Shown one piece after another: positions 11,285 to 60,832 of a stretch of DNA of 64,000 nt. The notes beneath the pieces are model-generated. The model worked only from the letters and a program-made list of their open reading frames with translations, was not told where the DNA came from and made no database searches. This DNA is from Owenia fusiformis. Taxonomy: Eukaryota > Annelida > Polychaeta > Sabellida > Oweniidae. The stretch lies in the NCBI GenBank assembly GCA_903813345.2, contig CAIIXF020000006.1:16868348-16932347 (forward strand), given 5' to 3'. Position 1 is the stretch's first letter. Each line of letters starts with the position of its first letter. Both the position numbers and the translations under genes were made by a program.

Positions 11285-13425
11285 CTTCAATTGAATTGTT
11301 TATTCTTTATTCATATTTATTCTTGAGAAACTCAGGGAAAGTGCAAACATCAGATAAAAAATTGAGGTGATGCATAATGAAGCATTTTCTGATTACTACC
11401 CATGATGCATATACATGAATAACTCAGTAAAAAGAAATGAGGTAAGTTTTTATCATTTATTCTTTAAAATATTTTCATTCTTAAAAATCATAAAGGAATC
11501 CTTGTTTATTCATGAAGAATTTATTCTTCATTATTCTAAAGTGATAATAATAATCCTGAATGTTTATTCATCTTTATTCTTGGGAACTCAATAGTGACTG
11601 GAAGTTTGAAAATTGAAGAATTACCGATGAATATTTAAGAATTAGTTTTCAAGCATATGCTTGAATAATTCATCAATTTGATTAGAAATTTGAAGAATAA
11701 AGAAGAATATTAATTCTTGTTTATTCATCAAAAACATGAATGTTTATTCATGAAGATTTCTCATTTATTCTTAAGAAATCCCTGATAATAAGGATCTTTA
11801 TTCTTGAATAATTCATGGAAAGTGTCAAGTTATCATATGATGAAAATTGAGGAATAAATCATGAACATAGAGGGATTGTGAAGAATATTGAAGAATATCA
11901 AAATTGATGTCCAAGCATATGCTTGAATAATTCTTGAATTTGCTTCCTAGAAATTTGAAGAATAAAGAAGAATATTTATTAATATATATTCTTCAAAAAC
12001 GAGAATGTTTATTCTTGTTTATTCTTAGAGATTCATGACGATTTTTCCTTCTTTATTCTTAAAAAATTCTGATAATCTATTCATCTTTATTCTTTAATAA
12101 TTCATGGCAGGTGAGCAAGTAATCATATGATGAAAATTTGGGGAATAAATGATGAACATAGAAGGTTTGTGAAGAATAATGAAGAATGTCCAAATTGATG
12201 TTCAAGCATATGCTTGAATAATTCATGAATTTGCTTACTAGAAATTTGAAGAATAAAGAAGAATATTAATTCTTGTTTATTCGTAAAAATCATGAATGTT
12301 TATTCTTGTGTATTCTTAAAGATTCATAAAGATTTCTCCTTCTTTATTCTTAAAAAATTCCTGATAATCAGGATTTCTATTCATCTTTATTCTTCAATAA
12401 TTCATGGCAGGTGAGCAAGTTATCATATGATGAAAATTTGGGGAATAAATGATGAATATAGAAGGATTGTGAAGAATAATGAAGAATGTCCAAATTGATG
12501 TTCAAGCATATGCTTGAATAATTCATGAATTTGCTTACTAGAAATTTGAAGAATAAAGAAGAATATTAATTCTTGTTTATTCGTCAAAAATCATGAACGT
12601 TTATTCTTGTGTATTCTTAAAGATTCATAAAGATTTCTCCTTCTTTATTCTTAAAAAATTCCTGATAATCAGGATTTCTATTCATCTTTATTCTTTAATA
12701 ATTCATGGCAGGTGAGCAAGTTATCATATGATGAAAATTTGGGGAATAAATGATGAACATAGAAGGATTGTGAAGAATAATGAAGAATGTCCAAATTGAT
12801 GTTCAAGCATATGCTTGAATAATTCATGAATTTGCTTACTAGAAATTTGAAGAATAAAGAAGAATATTAATTCTTGTTTATTCGTCAAAAATCATGAATG
12901 CTCATTCTTGTGTATTCTTAAAGATTCATAAAAATTTCTCCTTCTTTATTCTTATAAAATTCCACGACAATTAAAATTTTTATTCATCTTTATTCTTGAA
13001 TAATTCATGGCAGGTGTGCTAGTTATCATATGATGAAAAATGAGTAATAAATGATGAACATAGAAGGATTTTGAAGAATAATGAAGAATATCCAAATTGA
13101 TGTTCAAGCATATGCTTGAAGAATTCATGATTTTTGCTGAATCAGAATGTGAAGAATAAAAAGGAATATAAATTCATGTTTATTCTTCAAAAATTCCTTG
13201 ATATTTCTTTCTTTTTTGTTCTTGTTTATTCTTCACGGGTCCTTGAAAGTTTATTCATGAATATTCCAGTAATTCAGTTTTGAAGAATTTTGGGGAAGTG
13301 TCCAAATTGATGATCACGCATATTCATGAATAGTTCATGAATAATTATTCTTCATTGGTGGATTATTCATGAATATTTTACATGAATATTGATGAATAAT
13401 TCACGAATAATCAGGAATTATTCCA
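11285..13425. repeat. AT-rich satellite, period about 300 bp
   Basis: At least six head-to-tail units. The palindrome CAAGCATATGCTTG or its close variant occurs at about 11650, 11912, 12203, 12503, 12804 and 13105, giving spacings of 262, 291, 300, 301 and 301 bp. Units are full of 'gaagaataa' and 'ttattctt' words of opposite polarity, so single strands could fold extensively. The central three units are nearly identical and the outer ones decay. The right edge abuts the TLR pseudogene. Confidence 0.95.
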
Positions 13426-13462
13426 TGCTTTTTCGCCGGGGATAATCCTCCGAGACCCTGGG

Positions 13463-16205
13463 AATCATGTTGTTATAAACTTAAATGAATTACACAAGTT
13501 GGAAACCCTCTATATATCAAGAATAGACAGTTTTAGAATATTTTTTCAATTCAGCAATCTCTCAAGTCTGAAGCAATTTCATTTCCAAAATATGGCAGAA
13601 GCATTTAAAAGTTACCAACAACAAATATTGAAACTATTCAAGAGAAATAAATCCCATTGGTTTATTACCATAGACTTTTCTGGGAATTTGATGTTTCAAT
13701 ATTCAGATGATAGTTTATGTGCTCTGTTCGTTGATCTACAAATAACTGAGCTGTATTTGAATGACAATTATTTCACAAAACTTCCCTCTTGCATGTTCCA
13801 AAGATGTGAAATAAGGAAGTTATACTTGAATCGAAACAGAATCACTCATATTCAGAATGGCTTATTTCAATTTCAATTCATGTTTGATTTGTTAGATTTG
13901 TCTCAAAATACAATTTCTTCTATTGACGGAAATGCCTTTGAAAGTCTACTAAAAGGACCCTATTCCACTGTTAAAATGCATGATAATTTATTATCCTGTG
14001 ATTGTGAAATGAGGGCTTTCAGAAAATGGGTCATAAAAAATAGGCCTAATAGAGAAACATATGGTGTCACTGTAAAACATGATCAATTTTGTAAATCACC
14101 AAAAAGCCAAACAAATGAAAAATTTCTTGACTATAAATTAACATGGCTAGAATGTAACAATGGGTTATTCATACAAATATGTGCATTATCTAGCAGTTGT
14201 ATTATACTACTGACAATTGTGACTTTATCTCTGCTTAAATACTTCTGGAGGGATATTAAATACAGACACATGGTGCGAAAAGCACGAAAGCAAAATGTTC
14301 ACAATATCAATCAAGACAATGATGAAGAAGTGGAAATCTATGATGCTTTTGTGAGTTATCATTCTGAAAAAAGAATATGGGTGAATCAAGTTATGACACC
14401 AGAACTGAGTAAAGTCATAAATCATAGTCAACTTTACCTTTATGCAGATGATAGTTCAATCTTTATGCCATTTAATAGGAAAGCTAATATCATTGAACAG
14501 AACCAGCATTTACAAGCTGACTTAAATAATTTATGGGAATGGTCACAGAAATGGAAGCTTAAATTTAAACCTTCTAAAAGTCAAGATATGATTTTTAAAG
14601 GCTCAAGGAGGTGCAATCTCTTATACCCTCCCCTCTACCTAGGAAATGAGGTCATTAATAGAACCAGAACTCATAAACACTTAGGAGTCATTCTAGATGA
14701 GCATTTGAATTTTGAAGCCCATTTACAGGATATCATAAAAGCATGTAATATAATGTTAAATCCATTGAAAGTTCTTAAGACCAGGATTCGAGCTAAACAA
14801 CTAGAGAAGATGTATCTATCATTTATTCTCCCAAACTTAGAGTATGGAAGTATATTATTTGAAAAATCTACCAAGTATAATATTATGAAACTAGACCAAG
14901 TTCATTATAGGGCAGCATTATTAGTAAGTGGCTGCATTCATGGAACATCTACTGTAAAGGTTTTGAAATGTCTAAATTGGAATACCCTGTCTGAGCGGAG
15001 AAAGGAGAAACGTTTACGTTTAATGTATGATGTTAGACAGAAATTGGTCCCAACTTATGTTCAAAAAATTTTTGATAGTTATCAAAATAAGCAACATAAT
15101 ATTAACTTGAGAAAATCAAGAGAATACACTATTCCAAAGTTAACTGCACGTTCACAAAAGTCACCAATAATAAATGCCATAAGAGAATGGGAAGCCATTC
15201 CAAATTATCTAAAAAGTGCACCATCAAGAGTCACTTTCAAAACCAATTTACGTAAATATTCAGGAACAATGAAGCATTTAACAACCACAAACCTGGATCT
15301 TACAAGAAAAGAAGAAATTTTACTGAATAGAACAAGATGTGATTTCATTTTTACTGGTCATCTTTTTCAACATAATTTTCAAGGTATTGACAGTCCCAAA
15401 TGCATCTGTGGTTTTAAACAACAAACTACAAAGCATCTAATCTTCAAATGCCCTCTGTTGAATGTTATAAGAGAGAAACTTTGGGGGGAACTCAGGAACA
15501 TGCCAGAAATGAACATTTTCTTTACAGGATGCTCTATAGAGCAAAAGCTGAATATCTTAATGTATGGCAGAGATGGAGTTAACATAACATGCAATTCTTC
15601 AATATTGAAGCATTTTACCTCCTTTTTGTGTGAATGCATTGATATAATTATATAGTTTTAACACATTCCTGCCATGCATACATATATGTTGGTAGTCATT
15701 TTGTTGCTATTTTGTAAATTTGAATAAACTTTGTATTAACAGGGCCAATAATGCTGATTTCAGCCTCGGCCCTGTCATTTGTAGATAATTTTGTAAAGTA
15801 AAATAAAGAAACCATAAAAAAACTAAACTGAGTAAAGGTGACCTTGACTTCAAACTGATTCACGACAACAACATAATACCAGGTCAAGAGTCATACTTTA
15901 GTGGGATTATGACTCACATGGATCGTAGCCGCCATATTATATTCCTCGTTACACGGGGTTGGATGAAAGAGGGCTGGAATGAGTTTGAGATGAACGCAGC
16001 AATTGATATGCTAAGTCAAACACAGCGACATACTCTTATAGTGATATTGATGGAGAACATTCCATAGAAAGAGATGTCAGGAGAATTAAGGCTAATGGTA
16101 AGAAACAATGTTTGCCTAAAATGGAGTGAAGATGAAGGAAAACAAAGAAAATTCTGGAGAGATCTGAAACTAGAGTTGGGCAAGAAAAAATTTGATAAGA
16201 AATAA
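13463..16205 (+). pseudogene. Toll-like receptor pseudogene, 5'-truncated and LINE-interrupted
   Basis: Recognisable receptor coding begins just right of the satellite. It has leucine-rich repeats (for example ITELYLNDNYFTKLP and IRKLYLNRNRITHIQ), an LRR C-terminal cap (LLSCDCEMRAFRKWV), one transmembrane helix (about 14164-14240), and the TIR domain start IYDAFVSYHSEK. At 14414 a LINE interrupts. After 15825 the TIR domain resumes in the original phase with box 2 (HDNNIIPGQ), then GWNEFEM, and box 3 (FWRDLKLEL), ending at 16203-16205. A further in-frame TAG lies at 16065-16067, where a tryptophan codon would be one base away. No signal peptide or N-terminal LRRs are found, since the satellite occupies that place. 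This is a dead receptor copy. TIR receptors normally signal through MyD88-type adaptors; this one could not. Confidence 0.9.
14415..15825 (+). mobile_element. 5'-truncated LINE (jockey/CR1-like RT) in TLR
   Basis: The 1411-bp insert is flanked by a perfect 12-bp duplication, AACTGAGTAAAG (14403-14414 and 15826-15837). The coding part starts just before the reverse transcriptase YADD box (LYADDSSIF) and continues through the thumb and C-terminal region (HKHLGVILDEHLNF, LPNLEYGSILF) to a CxC...H...C end (CICGFKQQTTKHLIFKC), with stop at 15653-15655. The 3' tail ends with 'aataaagaaaccataaaaa'. The 5' truncation, tail and TSD are the marks of target-primed reverse transcription. By chance the insert is in the receptor's frame, so an open frame runs from 13499 or earlier to 15655. 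The family is judged from motif style only. Confidence 0.92.
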
Positions 16206-19200: not shown

Positions 19201-22200
19201 TCTGCAAAGTGGATCTGCCAAAGGTTTTCTTTAACTGCCTCTTTGGCTGAGATGTCATCTGAGCCTCGTCTCATGAATCTCTTAAATAATGCAGGCTCTA
19301 GTTCAATAGTTGGTTGACCTAGAATATAGAATATAGCATGAAATGGAGGAAATATTCATTTTGGGAATTTGCTACTCTGATTTTCTTAACAAAATGACTA
19401 TGCAGTTTTAGATTTTAGCTTTCTTATGGTTGTTTCACTGTATCCTATGTTCAATAGCTATATAAAAATACTTTAAATATGAAAAAAGATTTGCAAGTTG
19501 ACAAAACAGAAAAAATGGAGAATCAGCATTGAAAAGCATGTTAGAGAACCACTGATACAACTTACTGTTATCATATGAATAAAAAAATACATTTATTATG
19601 TCATACCTAATACTATAATATTTTACCTGGTTTTGTCAGATTAGAGTCAACCATATCTTTTTCTGCCTCAAAAGTCCTGGAAATATAAAAATAACTTGAT
19701 AGATTATCTCTGAGTGTGTGTTTTAACAATATAATATTCTACAAGGTGTCCAATAAATAAGGTGAAAGATATTGTAACTTTCTTAATATTGCACCAATCT
19801 TGATGAAATTTTCAGAGTTTGTAGCCCAACCATTTTTACCTTTATTCTGTGAATTTAAAGCATCTTCTATTTGATTGGCCAGAATTGTGGTTGCTATAGG
19901 AATGGAAACAACAAAAAGGTGGGGAAAGTTTGCTTACGTTACAACTTTCCAAAACATATTTATTCTTTCTGATAGCTTTATTCATACTCCCAGGTCTATT
20001 ACTACCACAAATACAATATAAAAACAGTCCTAAAGTCCCAGTGTTATGAAAATAAGCTATTCAACATAATGTCCATCTCTAGCTATACACTTCTTATGCC
20101 TATTCATCCACTCTCTAAACACACTTTCAAACCCATTCTTGCCCATTTCCTGAAGTCTTGCTAAGAAATGTGATCTGAGTTCATCAGTGCTTCCAAATTT
20201 ATTTCCTCTCAAGTCACGCTTGAGTTCTGCATATAAGTAAAAGTCATTGGGTGCAAGGTCTGGGGAATATGGAGGGTGTGCAAGTAGGGGTAGCCCCCGG
20301 GGGGTAGCCCCAGTGCCCTAATAGTTTCACTAGTGAGCATAGCTGTGTGTTTACACCCTGAGGACTGCTGAGCTGTCTCTGGCAGGAAGAAAGGAAGAAA
20401 GTCCTGTTTACCTGCATCATATTGAGCGAGAAATTCTCTAGACATTTTGACAGGGTTCTTACGCTGCTCATCTGTAAGCTCATGCGAAATCCACTTAGCT
20501 GAAACTCTTCTTAAGTTACAGTATTTCCTTAATATCGTATGTACAGTTCCTCTACTAATGTCAAACATTTCTGCCAGCTGTCTAACAGACACATGACAGT
20601 CATTCATCACTTGGGCTTCAATCTCTTCAATTGTGTCCTTGTCAAATGAAGAAACTGGCTTCCCACTGCATGGTTTGTCCTTAACTTCTTCATACCCAGA
20701 GCTGTATTTGTTAAACCACTTGTAGATATTTTTTGTATACTTTCTTGATTTCTCTCACTGTTTCCTTGACTGATTTAGCCAATTTAACACAGAATTTGAT
20801 ATTAGTTCTTTGCTCAATTCTGCTTTGTGCAGGAGCCATCTTGAACTTTGGGTTTCACAACACATTGTGATATGATGATATCTCATTGTGATGCATAAAT
20901 TTTGTTATTAGTAAAGATATCTCAATGACATCATAAAATACAACAAAGAAGCACTATGACATCAGAGAGGCTACCTAACAACCAAATTACCTTGGTTACA
21001 TATGTATACATCCAGTGTCAGTTGAATTTCATTTGTGGTTTTGCAGTTCAAAATGCATCATCATTTTGGAAATAATACACGCCCGGTGATCGTGAATATG
21101 GGACGGAGGGGGGGGGGGAGCAGGCAAATTCTGCTAGGAAATTCAACAAATCTGGAAGATTTATTTTTTCAAGAAAAAGTTTACTATTGAATTGCTAAAT
21201 GGATAGGCGCACGGTATGGTAGAATATGTTAGGTTTTCTGGGATTTTTTCTGAAACGATACGCATCTAAGGTATCAGATCTATTAAAAAAGGCGCAAGGC
21301 CATCAACAGGCACAAATCAACGTTTTTGCTATAAATCAAGCAACAATGGTCTGGACGACCTGTAATAAATACTTGTAAGTGATGTTATCATAACTAAATT
21401 AATGTCATTGCTGAATTTATAAAATAAGTTTCCATATGTGAAATAAAAAATAATCGAAAATAATGAATTTGGGATGGAGGGGGGGAGGGGACGGAGGAGG
21501 GGAGCAATATGTATATAAGACATGATTAAAGATGTTTCGCGACTTTAAGTCCTTTTACTCCAAATGTCCCCATTTTTCAGTCTCCAGGGGTATATCATCC
21601 AGTTTCTTACTAAGTTAATGAGTTCATTTTTCAAATACAAGAATTCGTGTGAAGTTGTTTCAATTTATAGAATTATTACTCCCCCTCCCTCCGTCCCCTC
21701 CCCCCCCTCCGTCCCATTTTAATTATTTTCGATTATTTTTTATTTTACGTATGGCAACTTATTTTATAAATTCAGCAATGACATTAATTTAGTTATGATA
21801 ACATCACTTACAAGTATTTATTACAGGTCGTGTAGTCCATTGTTGCTTGATTTATAGCAAAAACTTTGACTTTTGCACGTTGGTTGCGTTGCGCCTTTTT
21901 TAATAGATCTTATATCTTAAAAGAGTATAGGTTGAAAAATAATCCTAGAATACCTAACATATTTTATCATACCGTGCGCTTATTCAATTTGCAATTCAAT
22001 CGTAAACTCTGTCTTGAAAAAATAATTTTACCAGATTTGTTGAATTTTCTAGCGAAAATTGCCTGCTCCCCCCTCCGTCCCATTTTCACGATCACCGGGC
22101 GTGAATAAGACGACTGTAACTACAATAAGGGCCACGCCTTACAACCACAACTCTGGCCAATCAAATGAATTGAATATAAATTCACAGAATAAAGGTAAAA

Positions 22201-25200
22201 ATGTTTGGGCTACAAAATTTCATCAAGATTGGTGCAATATTAAGAAAGTTACAATATCTTTCACCTTATTTATTGGACACCCAGTAATTGTACTATTTCA
22301 CCATTTTGAGGAATGGTATAAGCAAAAAACTTAAATTGGGATTAATCCATCCAATCATTTCTTGTGAGTTTTGGAAATAAGACCAAAATTCACGATTCAA
22401 ATGTTGAAGTGAATAAAATGGCGGCTGTTTGAATTTAAATTTTGAATCACAACATTACATCTCCATATATGGAACAGAATATCGAAGTTGCACTCTGGGA
22501 GCCAATTCTCTTTGTTAATTTTGTGAACTTAAACATTGGAACTTGGTTGTGATATCACCATGGCAATGATTATTACAAATGACAATGACAAAGTATCTAT
22601 TTTTGACTCCAACTACCCTTCGCCAGAACACTTATTTCACACACACTTTAAATAAGAGATAATAATTTGATCTAAGCTATATCCAATCAGAAAATCAAAC
22701 TTCATTTGAAAATAATAATATAAGATAGTAAAATTGCAAGAACAACCAAAAAATGAAAAAATGAAAAATACTCTGGTACATTAAAGGGGTTAAAACTGTT
22801 TTATTTGTGATAGTCAGAGAGGAAATAGAATGGTGATATCCTTGTGAGATATTTCTCTTCACTGCATAGTACTGTATTAGCCTGCCAGAAGCATGAAATC
22901 AATATATTCTCTCTTAGCAAAATTCCACTAAGGTACACTGTATTAGAAATCTGCAATCAATAACACGATTTGATTCACCAGCCTGTGCTGTATGAGCAAT
23001 AGAAGCACAAAACATCTTTCACTTATCCCTGCTATTAGCTAAGTGCATTGCTACGAAAAGAAGCAAACAACCTTCCACTAACACTCGTAAGCTGTAGAGA
23101 GTAGTAGATGCCTATATAGTGTAAAGATAGTAAGCTGCTATGGTTTGGAGTTACGTGATCTAAAAACTGCCTAAACAACCAGATTTACCAAGCGCAAAGA
23201 TAACATTACATTTTACAAGTATCTGTATATAATAAAACTGATATACATGTACATGAAAGGAAATAATGCAAAGGACAACATACACTAATCCAATCTAAAA
23301 AGGTGAATAGACAAGGATTTTAATACCAGTATAACCAATACATACAATATGTAGGAATATACAATATAAAATATATCTAAAATTGGATACATACTATAAC
23401 AATGGCATATTTAGGAGACTTCAAAACCTGGTGTTTAACACAAGGCTTAAATGACAACACGTTGCAGATACTGTTAGATAAAGGTTTCACAAACATAAAC
23501 ACATTGAGGCTTGTAACACAGCCTCTTCTTGACACTGAACTAAAGATTGAACCCCTTGGACAGCATCTACTACTGAAGGAGGCTATTCGGAAGCTCTGGT
23601 TGACATCAGCACATGGAGGGGCTGGAGGAACACCTATAGGTGGCAGTACTGTCCCTGGGCAATCATACAATGACCCTCCGCCAGCATATAATACACTTGC
23701 ACTAGCGTTTAACACTATCAAAATTGTAAACATGGCACCAGGAACAGGTGAATCATTTCCAATGGAAACATTTAGCACATCTAAAAATGCCCAACCTCCA
23801 CTGCCTGGTGTGCATCCTCTACCAACAAGCATGGCTGCTTCACAAGCACAATCAAGTCTTCACCAGCACAATCAATCACAAGGCAACCAATCACTACACA
23901 AGGACAATCAACTGGTACACCAATACAGACCCCACAATCAGCTGCGAAAAAAGCAAATTCCAAAACCTAAGAATACTGCCAAAGTTGTGCATGCCCAGGC
24001 ATCAATAGAGGATAAGATCGCAGTAGCCACAGAACAACACCCACAAAAACACTCAAAAGCCCATCTAGCTGAAGATGCGACCCCAGCAGCCACTCATGGT
24101 GCTGAATTTGTGCACACTCATACATCCATAGAGGATAAGATTGCAGTAGCGACAGAACAACACCCACAAAAACACTCAAAAACAAAAGCACAACAGGCTG
24201 AAGAGGAGACAGCCACTCATGGTGCTGAATTCGTGCACACTCATACATCCACAAAGGATAAGATTGCAGTAGCGACGGAACATCACGCACAAAAACACTC
24301 CAAAACAAAAACGCAACTAGCTGAAGACACAATCCCTGCAGCCACTCATGGTGCTGAATTCGTGCACACTCATACAACCATAGAGGATAAGATCGCAGTA
24401 GCCACAGAACAACACCCACAAAAACACTCAAAAACACAACTAACTGAAGGGGCGACCCCAGCAGCAACTCATGCTGCTGAATTCGTGCACACTCATACAA
24501 CCATAGAGGATAAGATCACAGTAGCAACAGAGCAACACCCACAAAAACAACCAAAACAGAAACCACAAATTTCTTATAATAATCCATACATTAAAGGAAT
24601 GACTGATCTAACCTGGTTGTCAATCTTGTTTTGTTTTGCTTTGCTTGGAACAAGTATAGCAGCAGCGATTTATAAAACTTCAACATGGAAGTATTTCAAT
24701 GGAGCCTGGAGCTTTATTTTAATCGTATTTGCTATTATTAATGAATGTAAAATCAAAGACAGTCTACAAGACACTCGAGCAGGAAATAAAGTTGTCGCGA
24801 GATATTTCAAGATTATGAGTGTCTTTCTTCATCTGACGCTTCCAATTTGCTTGGCTATGATGGCAATGGCTGCTTATGGAATGTACATTGATCGAGAAAT
24901 ACACATCTATGGAAAACCTTGTGATCATCACATTATAACAATAATGTTAGAACTAAAATGTGAACATAATGCCACAAGTGATACAACACACGCATATATC
25001 GTAGGATGGAATACTCTTCAAGCAATACATACCGCCAATATAGTACTAGCTTATGTTGTATTTGTTATAGTCATATGGGCACTTTATGCAAGGTATGACT
25101 TTGTCAATGGTAGACCACCAATCACTTTCACAGATGATAAAGAAAGGAGATTCATCAAAACGAGCTTTTTGTTTAAACTCACTCCTATATCTTTTCCATT

Positions 25201-28200
25201 TTTATCCATCATTGAGGTGATATTCAAGACTTCAATGTGGCAACTCTTTCTTCCAGCAATTTCCGGTTGTATCCTTCTCATCTCTGGATTCCATGCACAT
25301 AATTTACATTTTCTACCAGAGGGTGTACAGAAAAAGAAGCGATGTAAACGCCAAATTGTTTTGTTAATTTTTTCCATGCTTGCCTGCATAGCAATGGTAT
25401 GTGTTCATGTGAGTGGTTTGTTTCTAGATAATGACATTCATGAATATGGGATCTCTTGTGATGAGGACTATATTAGATATTTTGATTATACATGTGAACT
25501 TGAAAAGACTGCTGATGGATCTGACTTCATAACACATGCTTATCTAAGTCATGAGAATCTAAATTATAAACAAGTGATCCATTTATGTATTGTGGTTTTA
25601 GGAGGACTACACATTATGTGTCTCTTTTATGCAGTCAATGCAGGTGTTTCATTTTGGAAGAAAAATGAAGCAAAATTCAATCTAAAGGAGAGTGAACAAA
25701 TATGAGGTCCAAGGGTGTAGCCAGGTTTCAGTCAGGGGGGGTGCGATTATGGCATAAACAAGCCAAAATTTTAAGATTTATCTTGAATTTTACAAAATTT
25801 GATGCAACTTCCTTCAAAGTTGAGCTAGAGGCTTCAAATAAAAAGCATTTTAAAGCTCTTTTCTTCTGCTATCTCAGGTTTATATTTGTATTGGTTATGG
25901 GGGAGGTCGCACCCCCTCCCGCCTGGTTACGCCTATGAGGTCCTTTTAGGATCTCAATGATACAATACTCTTGTATTCTGCCTTTGATTAAAATGAATCT
26001 AAAAAGCATAGGTGTACTTAAAAACTGTTGACTGTACTATAATCTATTTTGATGATTGATTCAGTGTGTACAATATTCCTAGGACAATATCTTGTATATC
26101 AAAAACTTATCTAAGGTTCAAGATGCAAGTACAATTTTATGGTCTCTAAATTACAATGTCATGTACAAAGGCTTTGTACATGTAATTTTTGTAATTTTTT
26201 GACACAGTATTAAAATATATAGGGTGATGAAGACTGAAGTAACACTGTATAGTCTACATGTACATGTATATTCTATAAATAAATAGATGTCATGATGAGT
26301 TACAAGCTCAGTTACAAGAGTTATCTTTATTTTTATATTGTACTTCTACTTGATTTGGCGCTACTTATTTTTGATGATTTGCTGTTTTGAATATTTGCTT
26401 TATCTGAGTGTTTTGGTCTGCACATAAACATGAATACATCATATCAATTAGAAATTTAAAAGTATTTTATTCTCAAGAAATAGTTAGATGGCACAAGCAA
26501 TAACAATCCATTCCAGTTTACCAGACCCCCTCTTGATTTATAACAAAACAAAAAAAATATTGACTTTTGCATGCTGGTGATGTTGTGGCTTTTTTAATTT
26601 ATCTCACAGTGTATCAATGAAGAAAAATCATTTCACCATATTGTTCACCTAATCATTTTGTGATTTGTTTGTAAACTTCCTTTTGAAAAATTAATTCTTG
26701 CAGATTTGTTGAATTTTCCTGATTACCAGGCATGAAGATGGCCACCCAAAAGTAATCCAATTAGTCATTTCCCTTGAATCATGATGACAAGATTTATCTA
26801 ATTACTTCCAAAATGATTGCCAGAAAACAAAATCGACACCCAAAGTTATTCAGGTCTAGAACGTGATATCTTCTATCATGTGTACTGATTTTAAGAAATA
26901 ACTGTTTAACTTACATTTTATCGACAGTTGGTTGGCGGCTTAAGAAATCTGAGATCTTTTCAAGGACTAGTTTTCTGTCAGGCATGTTGGCAAAGAGGTA
27001 GTTGATCTGAAAAGGATGTATGCAAATATGTAACATGTTGAAACATATGGTTGAAGTATTTGTACACAATCAAATAAATTTGAGAACAAAAAAGAAAAAA
27101 ACTTTCTCTTGGATATTAAATCTGAATTGTTAGGCACAAGCTTGATATCTCACATGATCATAAACATAAATATCTGTGACAGCAAAATACAGGTTTCATG
27201 ATCCAGCTTCCTTTCACAAATGCAAAAGTTGGGTGTCAAAATACACAATCCATGTCATGTCAGTGACATGACGTCACATATACGACGTCAGGTCCATCAT
27301 TTGTACCTTTGTTCAATTTAACTGGGAGAAAATTATTTGCACCTTCTTTGATTGTGTCTGTGTTTTCTAACACTTATAACTTTTGAATTCATTTTAGATG
27401 GTTCCAATTCATACAACCATACAGGAGTTGTGATCTCATTTTTTTAAATTGTGATTACTCTATATCCATCATGTACGAGACATGTACACATGTAACATGT
27501 AAAAAATACGAGGTTGTAAGTCTAAACAAGGTCAAGGGTTAACCAGATTGCCCCCATCTCGATTTTCCAAAATTTTATTTTATAAAAGTTTATTGAAATA
27601 AAATAATAAAATGAGATATCTCTTACCTTTCCCTTGGTTGTGACAAGTAGGGAGTTAGGGAGAACATTACCAGAGGACATCCCTGTCTTTTCGACCACAG
27701 AAATCTCCCTCATTGGTATCACTATGGCAACTAGACTCTTGACCTAATAAATATGAAAAATGTCACTCGTAAATGGCTGCAATAGGGTAATAACACAATA
27801 ACAATTTGTTACATATGCTGACTTCTGATGCTGATCACAAAATATGGTGGCTAGAACAAAGTCACCACTTCTTGGTGATACAATACAAAATAAATTCTTT
27901 AGGATAGAGCATGGAATTACAGAGTAAGTCCATGGACATAGCAACTTAACTTAATACTTACCCTACTTGCAAAACAGAGGTAGTGAGATGAGATGTATAT
28001 TCTACCCCACACATGTTGTTTATTATAAGGGGTCCACAACGTACATTCAACATCCCCGTCTAGCTTCTCATTGGCTGGCAGACGGAATATACTCCTGTAA
28101 GCTTCACTTCGAGCCCTTGCATCTAGATCTCTCTTTAGATATGACATCTTTCTCTTTTTCCTAGATACATTAATCAATAAAATAAATGACTAATATTCAA

Positions 28201-31200: not shown

Positions 31201-34200
31201 CAAAACCAGATGATCCAGTCTGTAAGAAAAGTGATGTTAAAACTCTCACAGAAAGCCTATCAGTTATGCAAGTTGAGATGATGAAATGTTGTGAGGGCAA
31301 CAAGGGGGAAAATACAGAAAATGTATGCAATCTTGAAGGACTGGTTAAACTTGAGGACTTGGCTGAGATCATTGAAAACCAACATAAAATGAATGCTTCA
31401 CTCAATCAACTTGTAGCTAACAATGCTGTGATAAATGGACGATTTGACAAAATTGATAAATCCTTGGCTGAAAGAAAACCTACAGAGCCAGAAGAGAAAG
31501 GTATGATTTTTGAATTTAAGTCAGCTACCTAGGTTGGGCTAGGTGTCTGTAGTTAACTACCAGTTTCACCACTATGTGCCTAATACAGGTCAGATAACAT
31601 GGCAAACAAATACAATATCTCACTTTGAATTATGATATATTTAAAGTCATGCCAATCAAGATTATTTCTATAGCTAAGTGTAGACTTGCCATACTTACTA
31701 CAAAGGTAATGAAACTCAACTGGAATTGTTTCTCTATTTAACTATTGCTGCTGTCCATCGTTTCAAAACAGACAAGTTCCAAAAATTTTCTATTTCATTC
31801 ATCTCTTATTGCAGAGATCTATCCTAAGGACTGCACTGACGTGCCAGGATACACAGGTGTAAAAGAAATTCAGACAGAAGATGGAAGAAAATTTGATGCT
31901 TATTGCAAAAGAGGATGGCTGTATCTCTCAAGGCGTTTTGACGGGAGTGTGGACTTTTATAAAACATATGCAGAATATCAATCAAGTTTTGGTGATCGTA
32001 ATGGCGAATATTTTCTTGGACTTGATAATTTGGTGAGTGTTCTGAAACAAGGGAGATACACTCTACGAGTTGATTTAAAGATGTGGCCACCAGCTAACAC
32101 TGAAGCCTATGCCCAGTATTCAACATTCCGAGTTGGAGATGCTACTGATGGTTATCGCTTGCACGTTGGAGGTTACACAGGCACTGCAGGGGACTCCTTA
32201 GGTCATTCTACATATCATCAAAATATGAAATTCAGCACGAAAGACAATGACCAAGATACCCATTCAGGAAGTTGTGCACAATTGTACAAAGGAGCTGGTT
32301 GGTACGGAGCATGTCACATTGCTAATCTGTTTGGTAAATACAGCAAAAGCTCTTTGTGTCCAGAATTTGCAGCGTGCATGTCATGGTATCACTGGCCTAA
32401 GAACATAGGGAACCCAAATAATCATTACTATTCCTTCAAAGAAGCAGCTATGAAACTTTACAGACAATAGCCTTTAGCCTTTTGACATAATTTGAAAAGA
32501 AATCAAAAATCATATATATCATATCATATATGAAACTCCATCGCAATTCAAATTGAATCATTTCAAATTACATTTGGAAAATTATTATGTGAATAAATAT
32601 TTGAAAATTGAACCCTACTGGAAATTTGTAGTGCCTTTATATGTATTTTTAGACCTACCAGAGTAATATAAAACATATCAAACACCTGTTGAAATGCACA
32701 GCAATTTTTTCAACACTAATCCACACTACCGTACCACGTGACCACATTTAAAAAGGATACAGGGTACAGTTAAGTTGCAAATGGAGCGGGTATTCTCTAT
32801 CTTTGTCCATTGGGCTTTTCTGGTAATAATAACTTTTTGACCCTGAATAAGTCATTGAAAGTGAAAGCTTAAATCTAAAGTCACATTTGAACTTCTGAGA
32901 ACTTGTAGATGATTTCGAAAAAAATGGTCAATTTGAAGCAAGATGAAAAAAGACCTTTTTAACCTTGAGAATGTCATTAACTGTCAAATCTTTTTTGACC
33001 TTGAGAATGTCTTTTATTTGAAGGTCAAATCTATAGTCAGATTTGAACTGTTGAGAAATCGTAGATGATTTTGAAAAGAAAAATTGGTCAATTTGAAGCA
33101 AGTTGAAAAAATACCTTTTTTCACCATGAGAAGGTCACTGAAGGTCAAATCTGAAATTCTGATAACTTGTAGATGATTTCGAAAAAAATTGGTCAATATG
33201 AAGCAAGTTGAAAAAAGACCTTTTTGACCATGAGAAGGTCATTGAAGGTCAAATCCGAACTTCTGATAACTTGCAGATGATTTTGAAAAAAAATTTGTCA
33301 ATTTGAAGCAAGTTGAAAAGACCCTTTTGAACTTTTTTGACCTTGAAAAAGTCATTGAAGGTCAAATCTTAAATATAAAGTCACATTTGAACTTCTGAAA
33401 ATATGTTGATGATTTTGAAAAAATCGTAACTCTGGGACAATACAATGTGTCAAATTCCTGCCTCTCACATCGTGCTGCATTATTACTTTATCTTCACAAT
33501 GCCTATAAGTACAACGACACAGTTAAAAGTTTAGAATGGACTGAAAGGTAGTATTGTCACAATTAATCGATACATAGAGATATTCATCTCCAAACGTGAT
33601 TCTAACTCTTTAAATTCCTCTTGCATTGTTTTGACTTATTTTAAGGTGAAAAAATATTTTTAAAATTTGATTTTTTATGCCAGTGTATTATACTTTTGAA
33701 TTTCCCCAGAAACATGATTGATGTGGCAAGGGCAGGATTCACCAAAATTAAATGTTGATATAGTACTCTAGTATAGTGTGTACACAAACATACAACACAC
33801 AAAGCTTAATCCCCATATCCTACTTTAATTTTGTTGTATCGAATTTTGTTATATTGAATATGATACTGTATAAGTGGTAATTTGCCTAAACATTTAATTT
33901 GCCTATTGCCTAATTTTTGCCAGGAAATGAATGTCAGAAATTTTCTTAATAATGTTATCCAATGGGAAGTTTCTTGTCATTAGAAAAATTAAAATTATAA
34001 AATTTGACCTTTCGGAAAAAAAATTAACCACTTGGAATAAATAACACTTATACAGTGATTGCAATACACAGAGTATAATTGAACACTGCAAACCTTTATA
34101 GATGCTAACAGCATCGCTGGCAGACACAATTCAACAGCAATTGTGACATTGATGTTAGACTCGGCAAGAGCGACACACAGATACAGAAGAGAAGACAGAA

Positions 34201-37200: not shown

Positions 37201-40200
37201 ATAATAATGATAAATTAATTACATCAATTTGGAGAAAATTAAAGCATAGGATATTAAGATGTTGAAATTCGGATATAACCCAAATTGAAATTGAAATTCG
37301 GATATTACCCAAATTACCGATCCTGACTAAATAAACAATAAATTCAACATTTATTTCCATTTTTAATAATTATATCATTGTGGGATCCACAGCAAGTATT
37401 ATTAATCCAAGTGATGACATCCAACATAACTTTAAAATATGAAACTTACAATTGGGATATAGTGAAAAAGAAATATTTTAATGGTAATATAGTAACTAGT
37501 ATCCAATATAAAAAATAAAAGTCACCAAGACTCTGATAAGTCAGAATGTAATCATATTAATGTTATTCAAATGAAAAACTGCCAATGCCATTATCAAATA
37601 ACAAAGCATGGTTATTTTAGCTTAAGCTTCATCTATACAATTCACTGCTTGACTTCTCTTACCAATTGGTTATCAAATAGTAGCACCAACTCATACCTAT
37701 GTCATAGGCATACCCAGTGGATTGGTGATTGGTGCGATCGCACCCCTCCCCCATAATCAATAAAAATATAACCATGAGATAGAAGAAATCTTTTTGGCTA
37801 TCGCACCCCCCCCCCCCTTGACTGAAAGCTGGCTACGCCAGTATCTACATAACTAAATCGAATCTACATGTACGATGTGCCTGGTGCAAAGCCATTCGGT
37901 ATAATGCTTTTTGGTACAATGCGTGTCGGAATGGCATTCGTTACAATGGCTTTCGGTATAAGGTGCATGTAATGTGCTTTTTCAGCAAATCAAGCACTGA
38001 CTGATACCTGCTCATAGTTAGTACTTTCTTATGCTTTTGATTTCATCTTTTTAAATCCACTATTTCTATTTCATAATATGTATCAGTATAGTAGAAAATT
38101 TTATTTTTCTGTTCGTAAATTTGAGAGTATGCACATGCGTACTTTGCGCACACGTAGCTACACCACTGATTATGAAAGGAATAATGGGATTGTTTAATTT
38201 ATCAGCTGGACCTTGGTGGATTTCCACTAACCCATCCACTTACCCACCAGGTACAGGCAACAAATTAAATGATCCCAGCAATCACAGTTGCAAAAAGTTC
38301 TATTTATTTCAGAGATGCCCAAAGACTGCACTGACGTGCCAGAATACACAGGTGTAAAAGAAATTCAGACAGCTGATGGAAGAAAATTTGATGCTTATTG
38401 CAAAAGAGGATGGCTATATCTCTCCAGGCGTTTTGATGGGAGTGTAGACTTTTATAAAACATATGCAGAATATCAATCAGGTTTTGGTGATCGTAATGGC
38501 GAATATTTTCTTGGACTTGATAATTTGGTGAGTGTTCTGAAACAAGGGAGATACACTCTACATGTTGATTTAAAGATGTGGCCACCAGCTAACACTGAAG
38601 CCTATGCCCAGTATTCGACATTCCACGTTGGAGATGCTACTGATGGCTATCGGCTGCGTATTGGGGGCTACACAGGTACTGCAGGGGATTCTTTAGGTAA
38701 TCCCGACTTCCATCAAAATATGAAATTCAGCACAAAAGACAATGACCAAGATACCTGGCATCGAAGCTGTGCGAAAGTGTATAGAGGAGCTGGTTGGTAT
38801 GGAGCATGTCACGTTGCTAATCTGTTTGGTAAATACAACCAAGGGTCTGAGTGTCCAAAATTTGCAGCGTGCATGTCATGGTTTCAATGGCCGGACACCA
38901 TATCGAACAAAGGGAATCATTACTATTCCTTCAAAGAAGCAGATATGAAACTTAAAAGACAATAGATTATTTAATTAACTTTTGCGAAAAAACTTATCAT
39001 ATAATATAAAACCAGATGCATAGCAATTTACATTAATTCATTTCAAATTATATTTGGAGAATTATACTGTCAAGTGACAACATGAATAAATATTTGAAAT
39101 TTTAATCCTACTAGATATTTGCTGTACCTTAATATCATTGTTTCAGACAAACCAGATTCATATAACTCTATACATCTCTAAAAATACACCAATTTGCAAT
39201 TCAGCACTGAATTCAGCGCTGGCATTAATTGATTCAATATCTCCAAAATTTAATGTTGATTCTAAGCATTGAATTCACCATTAGTTAACTCAGTGATTAT
39301 TTAATCAGCACTGAATCAGCACTGATTTAACTTCAATTCCAGCACTTATAAGTTATAAGTTATGATATATTCAATGATGAATTATTAATATGAATGATCA
39401 TTGAACCAATGGATGCTTCATCAATGATTTGAATTGTATGTGACATAACAGCCACATTGAAATGTTGATTCAGCACTTATTTTATGTCACCACCAAGAAA
39501 TTGTGACATATTGTTACGAATGTTGTCCAATTATCTACAGTCATGGAAAATGAAATTAATTTCATTATGGTTTCACCCATAATCCCCTCACCTAATAAAA
39601 TTTTAAATGTTGATTTGATTTGTCTTTCACTTGAATATTACAAAATTAACGCTTTTCGCTAGCAAAACCATAATTTACCCCCTCCCTCTAATGAAACTGA
39701 CTTCGTTATTCAACAACAGTTGAGAATAAGACACCATCCTTCACAGCCATACTGTTTTGTAACCAGTGTTCAGTATTGGTATAAAGCATCTCTAACAAAT
39801 CCTTACACTTCAATCAGATGGTGAAATTTTGCTGTGTTAATGTTTGTCAGTTGCGATCAGTTCCCTAAGGAAAGTGGATGGGTATCACAACAAATATCAA
39901 ATATCATTTTTGGCATCTACCAACAGTGTTTTTCCTAAGGCAAAATACATCACAGGACCACCGGACTGACAGGTTCTACATTTTGGCCAGTCCATACCAA
40001 AACTCATCGGACATTCGGACCTGTAACTTCAGTTTAATCACCGGTCCGTGTGAAAACTAACCAGTCCAAGACTAAGAGAGAAATGAAAGTAACAAATTTT
40101 AGAGCGAATTTCTTGCGAATTCAGTTTCAAATCAGCCCATAATCGCATGTTTTTATACATGTTAAAGGTGACCTACTTAACTGCAAATTATATTGAATTC

Positions 40201-58063: not shown

Positions 58064-58336
58064 TTATATGATCAATTATTTAGTAGGCTATTTAGATTCA
58101 TTTTACCAATTTTTCTTTTTTGGGAATAAAGTTATTGTTGCAAAACAAATATCTCTTTGTTGTCTTATTTCAGGACTACAATGTATATGACTTCGCAAAA
58201 GGAAACAATACTGAACTGAATGGATTCATCTATTATTACACAATGGACCATCACTACTATATAAACTTCGTAAAATCTAAGCAACAACATCAGTGATATA
58301 AAACAATACATAATACCTTCAAAAAGACTTATCAAA

Positions 58337-60832
58337 ATGGAGCATGGAGAGGTAATTGATTTTGTATCAACAACTGAGGAAAGGGACCCTCATCAATGTT
58401 CCATGACAATTCTCGCACAGAGCAATGATGAATATAATACCCTACATGGCTCTCTAGGGCCTCTACTGGAATATATGGACCCAGGTCTTCATTTTATAAA
58501 TGTCAAATTGAGTAACCCTGACAACAAGATCCTTTCTGATACTTTAATGAAACAGGCACAAGATCTACCAAAATGTCAGTCGGGTAAGGTTCTCACACCA
58601 GCTTTATCTGTGCTTCAGTTCTTACACGAAGAAGGAATGCTTACTTACGATGAAGCAAAGATTTTACTCCAGTCAAAGAAAAACTGGAAGTTTCATCATA
58701 AGATTGAGTTAGCTGTTAACAGAAATGGTTTAAAACAATCAATGGGTGTCCAGGCATTTTATTCGCCTTCTCCAGGTCAACCATTATGGGCAGTTAACCC
58801 AATTCACACAGACACAGAGTACATTCGTTTCCAATATTTCACGCGGGATTTCCCAGCCATGGTTGATTTCTATAGATTGATTCTAGGCAGTGAAGTTGAG
58901 ATCTCCAAGCCAGGATTCTGCGCTTTCTCTATTTACACAAAGCCAGGGTTTGAGGTTCAGCTTGCCTTGAAGGCCTCGACCTCTCTAGTGCCTTTTCCAG
59001 TTCGGACAGCCAGCCTTAGGTTTAAAATTGCCAACTTAGATGATATTGTTCCCATTCTTGGGTGTCACCCTGTAGAGGTTACAGCAACTGAGTACTGCAT
59101 TCAAGATCCCGATGGCAACTGGGTGATCCTTGAGGAAATCCAACAGGTAAATTATATTCCAAATCATTAAAATAACAAAGTAATTATTGGAATATTACTT
59201 CTAACATCAAAAAATAAAAAACAAAAAATATCAATTCCTCAAAACAACAGAAAATTACAATTACTGTATGTTCATAACAAGGTACAATATTTGATGTACA
59301 ATCCAAAAAAATGTAAAGGTAATACCATACTGTATTAAAACAAGATTTTAGAATACATGTACATTATTATTTTAAGTTGAGTGATTTAATGTTCTTATTC
59401 ATGTTATTAGGTTGATGATAATACTGATATCAACTCTGTTGGGGCCACAGAGACTGACTCCTGTGATGCATCTTTGCCAGAGGAAATCTCAGCAATGCCA
59501 CTAAGAAAACAACATTTGCCAACAGTTAAGCCTGTGTCCATGCTCAGCACAGTAGGGGAAGTTGGATCATGTGAGAGTCTGGATACATTGATGAAGTTTA
59601 CCTTGAACACTAGTGATTGCGATGACAGTGAGTCTGATTATTTTGAATGCCAACAAGAAAGAATGAGCCAACCAGTTTTGAACATATCCAATACATTGGT
59701 AAATAAACAGGTTGAATCAGCAGATTCAGGAGTTGACTGCTCTTCTCATTTAAGTAGTTTCAATAGTTCAGGAACCCTTGAGACTTTTTCCCCAATATCC
59801 CCTCCTTTACATAGATCTCAACAACAGACTATCCCAGAGTGCCACTCGGATGAGTCCTCACAAGAGGAACACTCCCAGAATTTCCAAAACAATACAATAC
59901 GAAGGCAAAGTTACATTTCTCCTAAAGAGTTGACTCAAAGTTTGAATATTCCAAGGAGGCCTTCACTGTCAACATCAGATGAAAATAGACGAATTTGTAC
60001 AAAGGTTCCACAAAGACCAATGAGAGCTCGACATCACAGTGATGTTGAACAATGTGATTACAGTGTAAAAAATAACAGAGCCATCGAGCAACAGTTTTAT
60101 CCTGGTGTTAATGCTCAGCATTCCAAGCCCATGAGAAGACAAAGTATCAATGATTTTATTTCTCATACTGTCTCAATGGCTAAATACTCTGATACTAATA
60201 CAACTGGAAGAATAAACAATGACAGGTTGAAAACGACACCTGGAAACAGACAACATTACAATTCTCTTGAGTATGCCCCACAAAATGACAGGTGTTTGGA
60301 ACAATATAGACAGTATCCAACTGAGGTTATGGCCCAACATATCAACTCTCAAAGAAGACAAAGTGTTGATGATTTTGTTTCACATACAGTTTCAATGGCT
60401 AAAGGTACTGTGAGACCCCCTAGCTGTAGCAGTGAATCAGAAGAGAGTGCGATCTCTGAACCCTCACCGAGATATAGTGTAGGAGGGTTAAATGCTATTT
60501 CCCCTCGGGAACAACGGTCTCTGATGAACCCCGCACCATCCGTCCATGACACACCCCATAATAATATCACAAGAAGATACAGTGTTGGGGACTTCATCAC
60601 TCAGATGTCAAAATCTAAAAATAAAATTGGAAAACTATTCAATGGTGGTGACCCACAATTAAAACAACGTCGTTCCTCAACTGATTCAGGGTCCACACAT
60701 TCTGGCTCAGGGACTAGTGATGAAGTCATGGAAACTAAAGTTAATAAAAAACAAGTTTGGTTCCAGAAAAGAAGAACAACAATAGCAGTGGGTAATAACA
60801 GAAGAACAATTAGTGATTCTGGATATCTCTGA
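58337..60832 (+). CDS. FAM124: FAM124-family protein
   Basis: Two coding exons, 58337-59146 and 59411-60832 (743 aa), phase 0; likely an untranslated exon start at 58174 (cttatttcag acceptor) with a 12-codon upstream frame at 58181. Residues about 20-268 are the FAM124 domain: the FLHEEG, WKFHHKIEL and QAFYSPSPGQPLWAV region, then a second half (FDFY/VDFYRLILG ... LDDIVPILG ... QDPDGNWVILEE) that looks like a VOC/glyoxalase-type fold. The long Ser-rich tail is low complexity and carries three RR[QY]S[IV]xDF motifs near residues 512, 585 and 658, plus RRPS, RRSS and RRTIS. Vertebrate FAM124A/B are of unknown function; FAM124B has been reported to associate with CHD7/CHD8. The A-or-B choice is not made here. 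Confidence 0.88.

Follow-up and report, generated by a model that had tools for sequence, protein, structure and literature searches.

A gene of Owenia fusiformis joins a SAM-like domain to two copies of a candidate CD20-like membrane module

The locus and its reading frame

We analysed a stretch of 64,000 nucleotides of the Owenia fusiformis genome (C6:16868348-16932347; hereafter the window), and in particular one of its genes, whose product joins a SAM-like domain to two copies of a four-helix membrane module; a chain of sequence comparisons supports the module as a diverged member of the CD20-like family. The whole genome, 498 Mb in 525 contigs, was used for paralog searches. The coding frame runs without interruption from ATG to TGA and looks like a genuine gene, with a ratio of nonsynonymous to synonymous substitutions (dN/dS) of 0.32 against a paralog. 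An earlier reading made from the letters alone (the sequence-only reading) had described the gene as intronless; the coding part is complete in a single piece, and the statement covers that part, an intron in the 5' untranslated region being possible. Upstream of the ATG, homology to the paralog C8 extends for 59 bases, to position 23343. From the N-terminus onwards the protein is composed of the SAM-like domain, a PPAY motif, five repeats, and modules A and B (Table 1).

Table 1. The gene, its parts, the family members found elsewhere in the genome, and the insertion behind the frame. Positions are those of the window unless a contig is named.
Feature	Position	Strand	Evidence or description
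Whole coding frame, 767 aa, one piece	23402..25705	+	ATG-to-TGA frame; dN/dS 0.32 against C12a
SAM-like domain, residues 1-70	23402..23611	+	profile matches to SAM and gag-type domains; tree
PPxY motif PPAY, residues 93-96	23678..23689	+	recurs in N-tails of the family
Five histidine-rich repeats of ~41 aa, residues 194-385	23981..24556	+	TRF, motif scan, genome matches
Candidate CD20-like four-helix module A, residues 403-575, loop Cys507 and Cys520	24608..25126	+	blastp, profiles, hydropathy
Candidate CD20-like four-helix module B, residues 577-746, loop Cys686 and Cys698	25130..25639	+	blastp, profiles, hydropathy
Paralog C12a	C12:29.57 Mb		670 aa; SAM-like domain and two modules
Paralog C12b	C12:33.07 Mb		673 aa; SAM-like domain and two modules
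Paralog C8	C8:12.00 Mb		777 aa; SAM-like domain and two modules
Paralog C7	C7:1.52 Mb		558 aa; two modules
Paralog C1	C1:36.70 Mb		1002 aa; two modules
Paralog C2	C2:8.74 Mb		443 aa; one module
Paralog C2b	C2:8.71 Mb, 23 kb from C2		341 aa; one module; C2-module search
Repeat insertion right after the gene, not part of the coding region	25701..25943		direct repeats, genome matches

A duplicated four-helix module

The sequence-only reading proposed that the membrane part consists of two related halves, and this has statistical support. Modules A and B of the window protein (W6_A and W6_B) are 28% identical over 159 aa by blastp, with E values of 3.4e-9 (A as query) and 3.3e-5 (B as query) at a database size set to 1e6, and a profile of A modules matches a profile of B modules at E 1.9e-14 when the three SAM-bearing paralogs are used and at 8.1e-34 with the five doubled paralogs. 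In C1 the similarity between the halves is hardly visible to blastp (E 0.25 and 0.06). When 14 modules are arranged in a tree, the six A modules lie on one side of a branch (support 89/93) and the six B modules likewise (78/94), with the two one-module paralogs apart from both (76/91); this tree has moderate supports, a long branch for C2b and a root placed at the midpoint only. Because A and B modules separate in this way, a single doubling, common to the six doubled members, would predate their split.

Transmembrane (TM) helices were called from Kyte-Doolittle hydropathy, as a 19-residue mean of at least 1.5. This recovered seven of the eight helices read previously for the window protein, all but TM2 of module A; among the paralogs, all eight were found in C12a, C12b and C1, five of eight in C8 and C7, and three of four in C2. 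The loop between TM3 and TM4 holds a pair of cysteines in all 14 modules, as the earlier loop signature required, and its THAY element is present in both window modules but varies elsewhere, the position being TGPN in the A modules of C8, C12a and C12b. Seven residues are invariant in 11 aligned modules, six of which lie in or beside the TM3-4 loop.

Since some of the 14 modules are closely related to each other, counts of charges and sequons over them are not independent. The TM3-4 loops are acidic (51 Lys or Arg, 124 Asp or Glu) and the TM2-3 loops basic (70 and 18, respectively); N-glycosylation sequons number 27 in the TM3-4 loops and 9 elsewhere in the modules, and the loop carries at least one in 12 of 14 modules, the exceptions being W6_B and C12a_B. 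Charge, sequons and hydropathy support a predicted topology with the N- and C-termini inside and the TM3-4 loops outside. Cysteine pairs, acidity and sequons fit the extracellular loops proposed before, in which the paired cysteines may be bonded to each other. The TM3-4 loop of CD20 is closed by a disulfide.

Relationship to the CD20-like family

The CD20-like family (PF04103) comprises MS4A, TMEM176, FAM189 and TMEM212. The link to it runs through the one-module paralog C2, which matches PF04103 at E 3.3e-6 over positions 20-151 of 156, with 27.7 bits against a cut-off of 27.9; in a genome-wide PF04103 scan with its neighbours it received 27.9 bits and was marked as over the cut-off. Its next-best Pfam family has E 0.0037. 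Module B of C1 (E 3.7e-4) and module B of C7 (0.052) also match PF04103, below the cut-off. The window modules match the C2 module in turn by blastp, A at E 3.5e-16 (4.4e-9 in the reverse direction) and B at 3.1e-16.

A second line of evidence comes from profiles. A profile of 11 modules, drawn from 13 after the C12b pair was dropped as 92-93% identical to that of C12a, was aligned by hhalign to a profile of five CD20-like proteins of the same genome, with E 6.4e-6 and a score of 41.1 over 134 columns; the maximum in 180 column shuffles of the CD20-like profile was 28.4, and the reversed profile scored 14.7. A repeat including C2b, which was also added for the PPxY counts and the 14-module tree, gave 41.4 against a shuffle maximum of 32.3 (n=25), and all B modules together gave 36.3 against 30.0 (n=25). 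The CD20-like profile used five of the ten rows of the genome scan; L019 (a near-copy), L020 (C2 itself), and L021, L024 and L025 (partial or weak) were left out. Five of the ten rows are over the Pfam cut-off. The four-helix module is thus supported as a diverged CD20-like module, by a chain of steps; the assignment is transitive because the window protein and its own clade give no clear direct match.

Other families were considered and rejected. DUF3169 (E 0.0037) and ERG4_ERG24 (0.0046) match one module each, below the cut-off, CD20 being the best Pfam match over the 11 modules. Chordopox A13L (E 0.043 with the whole protein, 0.015 with the membrane part) is also below the cut-off, covers 45 residues and was taken as chance. 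No match to tetraspanins (PF00335) was found; the window protein has no adjacent cysteines and two cysteines per TM3-4 loop, and the large loop of tetraspanins is described with a CCG motif and 4-6 cysteines (PMC4815072).

Elsewhere in the genome, L016-L019 (C1:50.7-53.2 Mb and C9:14.99 Mb) are single-frame CD20-like matches over the Pfam cut-off, of which L018 spans only the first half of the PF04103 profile; L016 and L018 carry PPxY in their C-tails.

The SAM-like domain and its gag-type relatives

Pfam, PF00536 included, gave no match to the SAM-like domain in any of the four members that bear it. Its similarity to the SAM superfamily, as read before, was seen with profiles: with 11 ordinary SAM domains from this genome the score is 27.5 (E 2.2e-5), above a shuffle maximum of 18.3 (n=120). 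These 11 loci were retained from 12 (L064, which contains a stop, was dropped) and came from 37 matches. Against five gag-type SAM-like domains, chosen from 11 segments after dropping near-copies and partial segments, the score rises to 41.9 (E 2.7e-8), with maxima over 120 shuffles in total of 34.9 for 12-column blocks and 22.6 for smaller blocks.

In single-sequence searches the window domain and gag-type frames of 370 aa find each other reciprocally at E 1.1e-3 to 4.5e-3 with 36-37% identity; from the gag side, C12a and C12b reach no better than E 0.38 and 0.49, and C8 is missing among the matches listed. Ten of the 11 rows outside the family that were found with the window domain recur in the gag-type match list, the exception being C12:23831079 (E 1.1). 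Tree building groups the four host domains with the five of gag type, against the 11 SAM domains (support 97/98), the two being sister groups. The nearest relatives found for the SAM-like domain, by these sequence comparisons, are retrotransposon gag-type domains of the same genome. The direction of transfer is not fixed by the tree, since the two groups are sisters; transfer from element to host is favoured because the gag-type frames are spread more widely and the host paralogs that carry the domain are four and derived. The domain was thus probably acquired from a retrotransposon gag-type protein. A sequence search of the PDB with the SAM profile returned nothing taken as real; a match to lipocalin-type prostaglandin D synthase (E 0.69) over 20 residues was attributed to chance.

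The element read most fully, L072 462-4125, is composed of three frames. The gag-type frame has the SAM-like domain followed by a CCCH finger (PF18044, E 0.0012, below the cut-off); the second encodes reverse transcriptase and RNase H (RT-RNase H; PF00078 9.4e-17, PF17917 8.8e-7); the third has a weak match to the N-terminal part of tyrosine recombinases (PF13495, E 3.8e-4, below the cut-off), and an HxxR motif was read by eye close to its C-terminus. Because of these gag-type, RT-RNase H and recombinase-like frames, L072 was taken as a tyrosine-recombinase retrotransposon. Its order of gag, RT, RNase H and recombinase is presumably Ngaro-like. The order in DIRS1 is a different one (PMC3266345). 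Further gag-type frames, known from short stretches, are 41-49% identical to that of L072 over the SAM-like part where it could be read at full length; the frames beyond gag were read in L072. L072, L043, L042 and L052-L059 are probably tyrosine-recombinase retrotransposons, of one or more kinds, whose gag-type frame starts with a SAM-like domain. Diverged relatives of this frame occur elsewhere in the genome; among the rows, three show 100% identity over 71 aa.

The N-terminal tail

Between the SAM-like domain and the membrane part lies a long tail with PPxY and repeats. TRF reports a tandem repeat at 24000-24568, with a period of 123 bp, 4.6 copies and 81% matches, and a motif scan finds five units starting at residues 194, 235, 276, 319 and 360. 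The number of units is the one previously claimed; the first of them does not read VHTHT. The window gene and C8 show five clear repeats each; in C12a and C12b they are eroded, and all nine genome matches at E <=1 fall inside these four genes.

PPxY occurs in the N-tail of seven of the eight family members, and in those seven nowhere else in the protein. In 2000 shuffles of the window tail, 2.1% contain it, and the chance per shuffled tail is 0.020-0.110 across the seven. Four of the seven motifs probably descend from one ancestral motif, which leaves about four independent cases. PPxY is the motif by which ENTREP/FAM189A2 binds ITCH (PMC8811627), and by analogy NEDD4-type ligases would be likely partners of the motif here.

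Family members, selection and gene copying

The family has at least eight single-frame members, distributed over six large contigs: two have one module, two have a pair of modules, and four combine such a pair with the SAM-like domain. The number is a lower bound, as the genome searches score the best candidates only. With the membrane part as query, six paralogs came up in addition to the window gene (nine matches in seven candidates), and C2b, when used as genome query, returned no further member below E 1. Of the eight members, the window gene, C8, C12a and C12b are the ones in which a SAM-like domain was found.

Purifying selection is evident from the paralog comparisons, in which overall dN/dS is 0.32-0.37 across five pairs. 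Between the window gene and C12a the overall values are dN 0.324 and dS 0.999; by region, dN/dS is 0.12 in the SAM part (0.196/1.658), 0.57 in the tail (0.502/0.878) and 0.26 in the membrane part (0.258/0.999). C12a and C12b differ by 0.041/0.112 overall and by 0.059/0.076 in the tail, the latter giving the highest regional ratio, 0.78. This pair shares a block of 3.2 kb, which extends 688 bases ahead of the frame and about 470 past it, and because the block exceeds the frame a duplication at the DNA level is likelier than a spliced retrocopy. Outside the frame there is little similarity between the window gene and either C12 copy, and this comparison is therefore uninformative on the mode of copying. 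A minisatellite of ~44 bp, judged from the spacing of blastn pieces, is found near the edge of the 3.2-kb block (L073 ~2353-2481, and L074).

Other features of the window

Directly behind the gene lies an element of ~223 bp (~25711-25933), flanked by 10-bp direct repeats, TATGAGGTCC, with the TGA stop inside the left copy. It has at least 47 matches in the genome, the window included, at 81-100% identity (from the best 40 of 2455 candidate places).

On the forward strand, a frame at 13400-15655 is of Toll-like-receptor type (LRR_8, E 3.2e-9; a TM helix and the start of a TIR domain by eye) and passes over into a reverse transcriptase (RVT_1, E 2.6e-7), as if an element of the non-LTR (long terminal repeat) type had broken up a receptor gene. 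Two similar fibrinogen-C frames lie at 31742-32470 and 38273-38965 (+), the first with PF00147 at E 1.1e-46 and the second judged from its sequence. At 58274-59170 (+) a frame with a FAM124 domain (E 7e-39) is followed by a serine-rich frame (59411-60832), for which no Pfam match was found at E 0.001. The reverse strand carries a Transposase_21 (tnp2) frame at 787-2613 (E 1.5e-15) and, at 20209-20754, a transposase-type helix-turn-helix (HTH_32, E 4.9e-9) that is mariner-like by eye.

Discussion

Reasoning by analogy with known proteins, we lean slightly towards the view that the window protein is a CD20-like scaffold or receptor of the cell surface, pre-dimerised, clustered by its SAM-like domain and controlled by WW-domain partners. 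The two four-helix modules, fused head to tail, would allow one chain to replace the assembly of CD20/MS4A chains. Both termini would lie in the cytosol, and each module would expose one loop with a cysteine pair, that between TM3 and TM4, to the outside. The SAM-like domain, in the cytosolic N-tail, would probably cluster the protein or bind a SAM partner, and PPxY would probably recruit proteins with WW domains, for instance ubiquitin ligases of the NEDD4 type, by which amount and endocytosis would be controlled; the repeat stretch may be a spacer in the same tail. The product would be a pre-dimerised receptor or scaffold, and the oligomerising receptor or scaffold of the sequence-only reading is plausible. 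A more specific version, which we put forward tentatively and consider rather less probable, is that a domesticated gag SAM domain clusters a CD20-like receptor: within a single animal lineage the module would have doubled first and the gag self-assembly domain been gained later, and the outcome would be an eight-helix protein of the cell surface that polymerises by gag chemistry and is tuned by WW ligases.

Several results weigh against this interpretation. The function of the window protein rests on analogy. The protein has no PF04103 match and passes no Pfam cut-off, and sequence searches of the PDB with it and with the module profile gave no match; PF04103 appears at E <=10 in just three of 11 modules. 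When C1, C7 and C2 are left out, the SAM-bearing clade of the window gene (A and B modules) scores 31.2 against the CD20-like profile with a shuffle maximum of 30.7, which is the level of noise, and its A modules alone (20.2 against 27.2), its B modules alone (25.9 against 26.5) and all A modules of the family (20.2 against 20.7) fall below their shuffle maxima (n=25 each). Two of the five CD20-like comparison proteins, L022 and L023, are themselves under the Pfam cut-off. AlphaFold2 models were poor for the module (mean predicted local distance difference test, pLDDT, 48.1) and for the SAM piece (58.7), and Foldseek with the latter, poor, model found nothing at E <=0.001, an EphA2 SAM domain appearing only at E 8.3. 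C2b has no PPxY. No named family gave a clear match to the protein as a whole, yet the earlier statement that no such family is known is only partly upheld: the modules are CD20-like by steps and have published doubled counterparts in MS4A.

Among the alternatives, an ENTREP-like ligase adaptor fares best, although we regard it as improbable. The membrane part would then be a mere anchor, and the PPxY tail and the SAM-like domain would bring HECT ligases to other cargo. The recurrence of PPxY beyond its chance frequency speaks for it, as do the CD20-like frames L016 and L018 with PPxY in their C-tails, and ENTREP/FAM189A2, which according to its authors has a CD20-homologous region, acts through PPxY and ITCH (PMC8811627). 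The motif of ENTREP is in the C-tail, however, and that of the window family in the N-tail; moreover, the concentration of invariant residues in and beside the TM3-4 loop suggests a role for the outside loop.

Slightly less probable still is that the module belongs to an unrelated four-helix family, resembling CD20 by convergence, so that the gene would encode a lineage-specific orphan membrane protein. The Pfam result for the window protein and the failure of own-clade profiles to clearly beat shuffles agree with this, and earlier invertebrate MS4A-like matches were argued to be short and possibly convergent (PMC2826416). The C2 match, however, spans 132 of 156 positions of PF04103, with the next family three orders of magnitude weaker in E. 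The profile of all family modules exceeds its 180 shuffles and the reversed profile, and topology and loop cysteines agree with CD20, whose loop has a disulfide.

Less likely still, in our view, is a role like that of mammalian MS4A chemoreceptors, in which the protein would sense chemicals or take part in ligand-gated entry of calcium. MS4A proteins give odorant calcium signals in HEK293 cells (PMC11026480), and the diverged paralogs on six large contigs would suit such a role; only eight members were found, however, and the loops keep invariant residues instead of diversifying throughout. That the frame is non-functional or a chance product, for example part of a mobile element, is very improbable: the members are scattered and single-frame and a high-copy repeat follows the stop directly, but eight frames are open, dN/dS is low in all five pairs and the membrane part has no high-copy relatives.

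Doubled CD20-like modules were already known, and a gag-type SAM-like domain ahead of them appears to be a new combination; among the titles and opening lines of abstracts listed in a literature search, with most subscription journals outside its scope, none dealt with such an architecture or with gag proteins that contain SAM domains. The sequence-only reading had missed the seven paralogs, the PPxY motifs and the relationship between the SAM-like domain and gag-type proteins of retrotransposons. Invertebrates have been concluded to lack MS4A or MS4A-like genes (PMC2826416), a view on which the CD20-like frames found here over the Pfam cut-off bear; the genome also holds the doubled branch, which reaches the family by steps only. 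The path from single module to fused dimer is testable, because stages with one module, two modules, and two modules plus SAM-like domain coexist in one genome. Members of the CD20-like family serve as drug targets and as receptors for odours. Should the SAM-like domain derive from gag, the gene would clearly exemplify how an assembly domain of a transposon can be rewired to serve in a membrane protein.

Comparison with known systems

With PF04103 the modules share, by prediction, four TM helices, inside termini and a TM3-4 loop that is the larger one, together with the cysteine pair in that loop known from CD20. Moreover, WGG in TM2, which we take to be a motif of the CD20-like family, is present in the C2 module and in module A of C7. 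The window protein differs in lying below detection by the Pfam model, in being doubled and in its long N-tail with a SAM-like domain. MS4A genes proper are clustered and have several exons, whereas the genes of the window family are single-frame and dispersed on six contigs.

Tandem MS4A proteins of chicken, opossum and platypus have two, and in one case six, CD20-like modules per chain, which their authors took as support for dimers (PMC2826416). The likeness to the window protein is that several four-helix modules stand in one chain. The tandem proteins are vertebrate, with modules that according to that paper most resemble human MS4A1, 3, 12 or 15; the accessible part of that source mentions neither a SAM-like domain nor such a repeat, and the doubling of the window family is common to six paralogs. 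ENTREP/FAM189A2 resembles the family in combining a CD20-homologous region with a cytosolic PPxY, and differs in having the motif in the C-tail and one TM helix in its authors' model (PMC8811627); doubling and SAM are not mentioned in the accessible part of that paper.

The gag-type first frame of L043 and L072 starts with a SAM-like domain that is 36-37% identical to that of the window protein, with a profile E value of 2.7e-8, and it differs in what follows, a CCCH zinc finger (below the Pfam cut-off) and then the RT-RNase H and recombinase-like frames. Yeast Sho1, a four-TM oligomeric osmosensor and scaffold (PMC4411306), offers a likeness by analogy only to the oligomeric membrane scaffold that the window protein may be.

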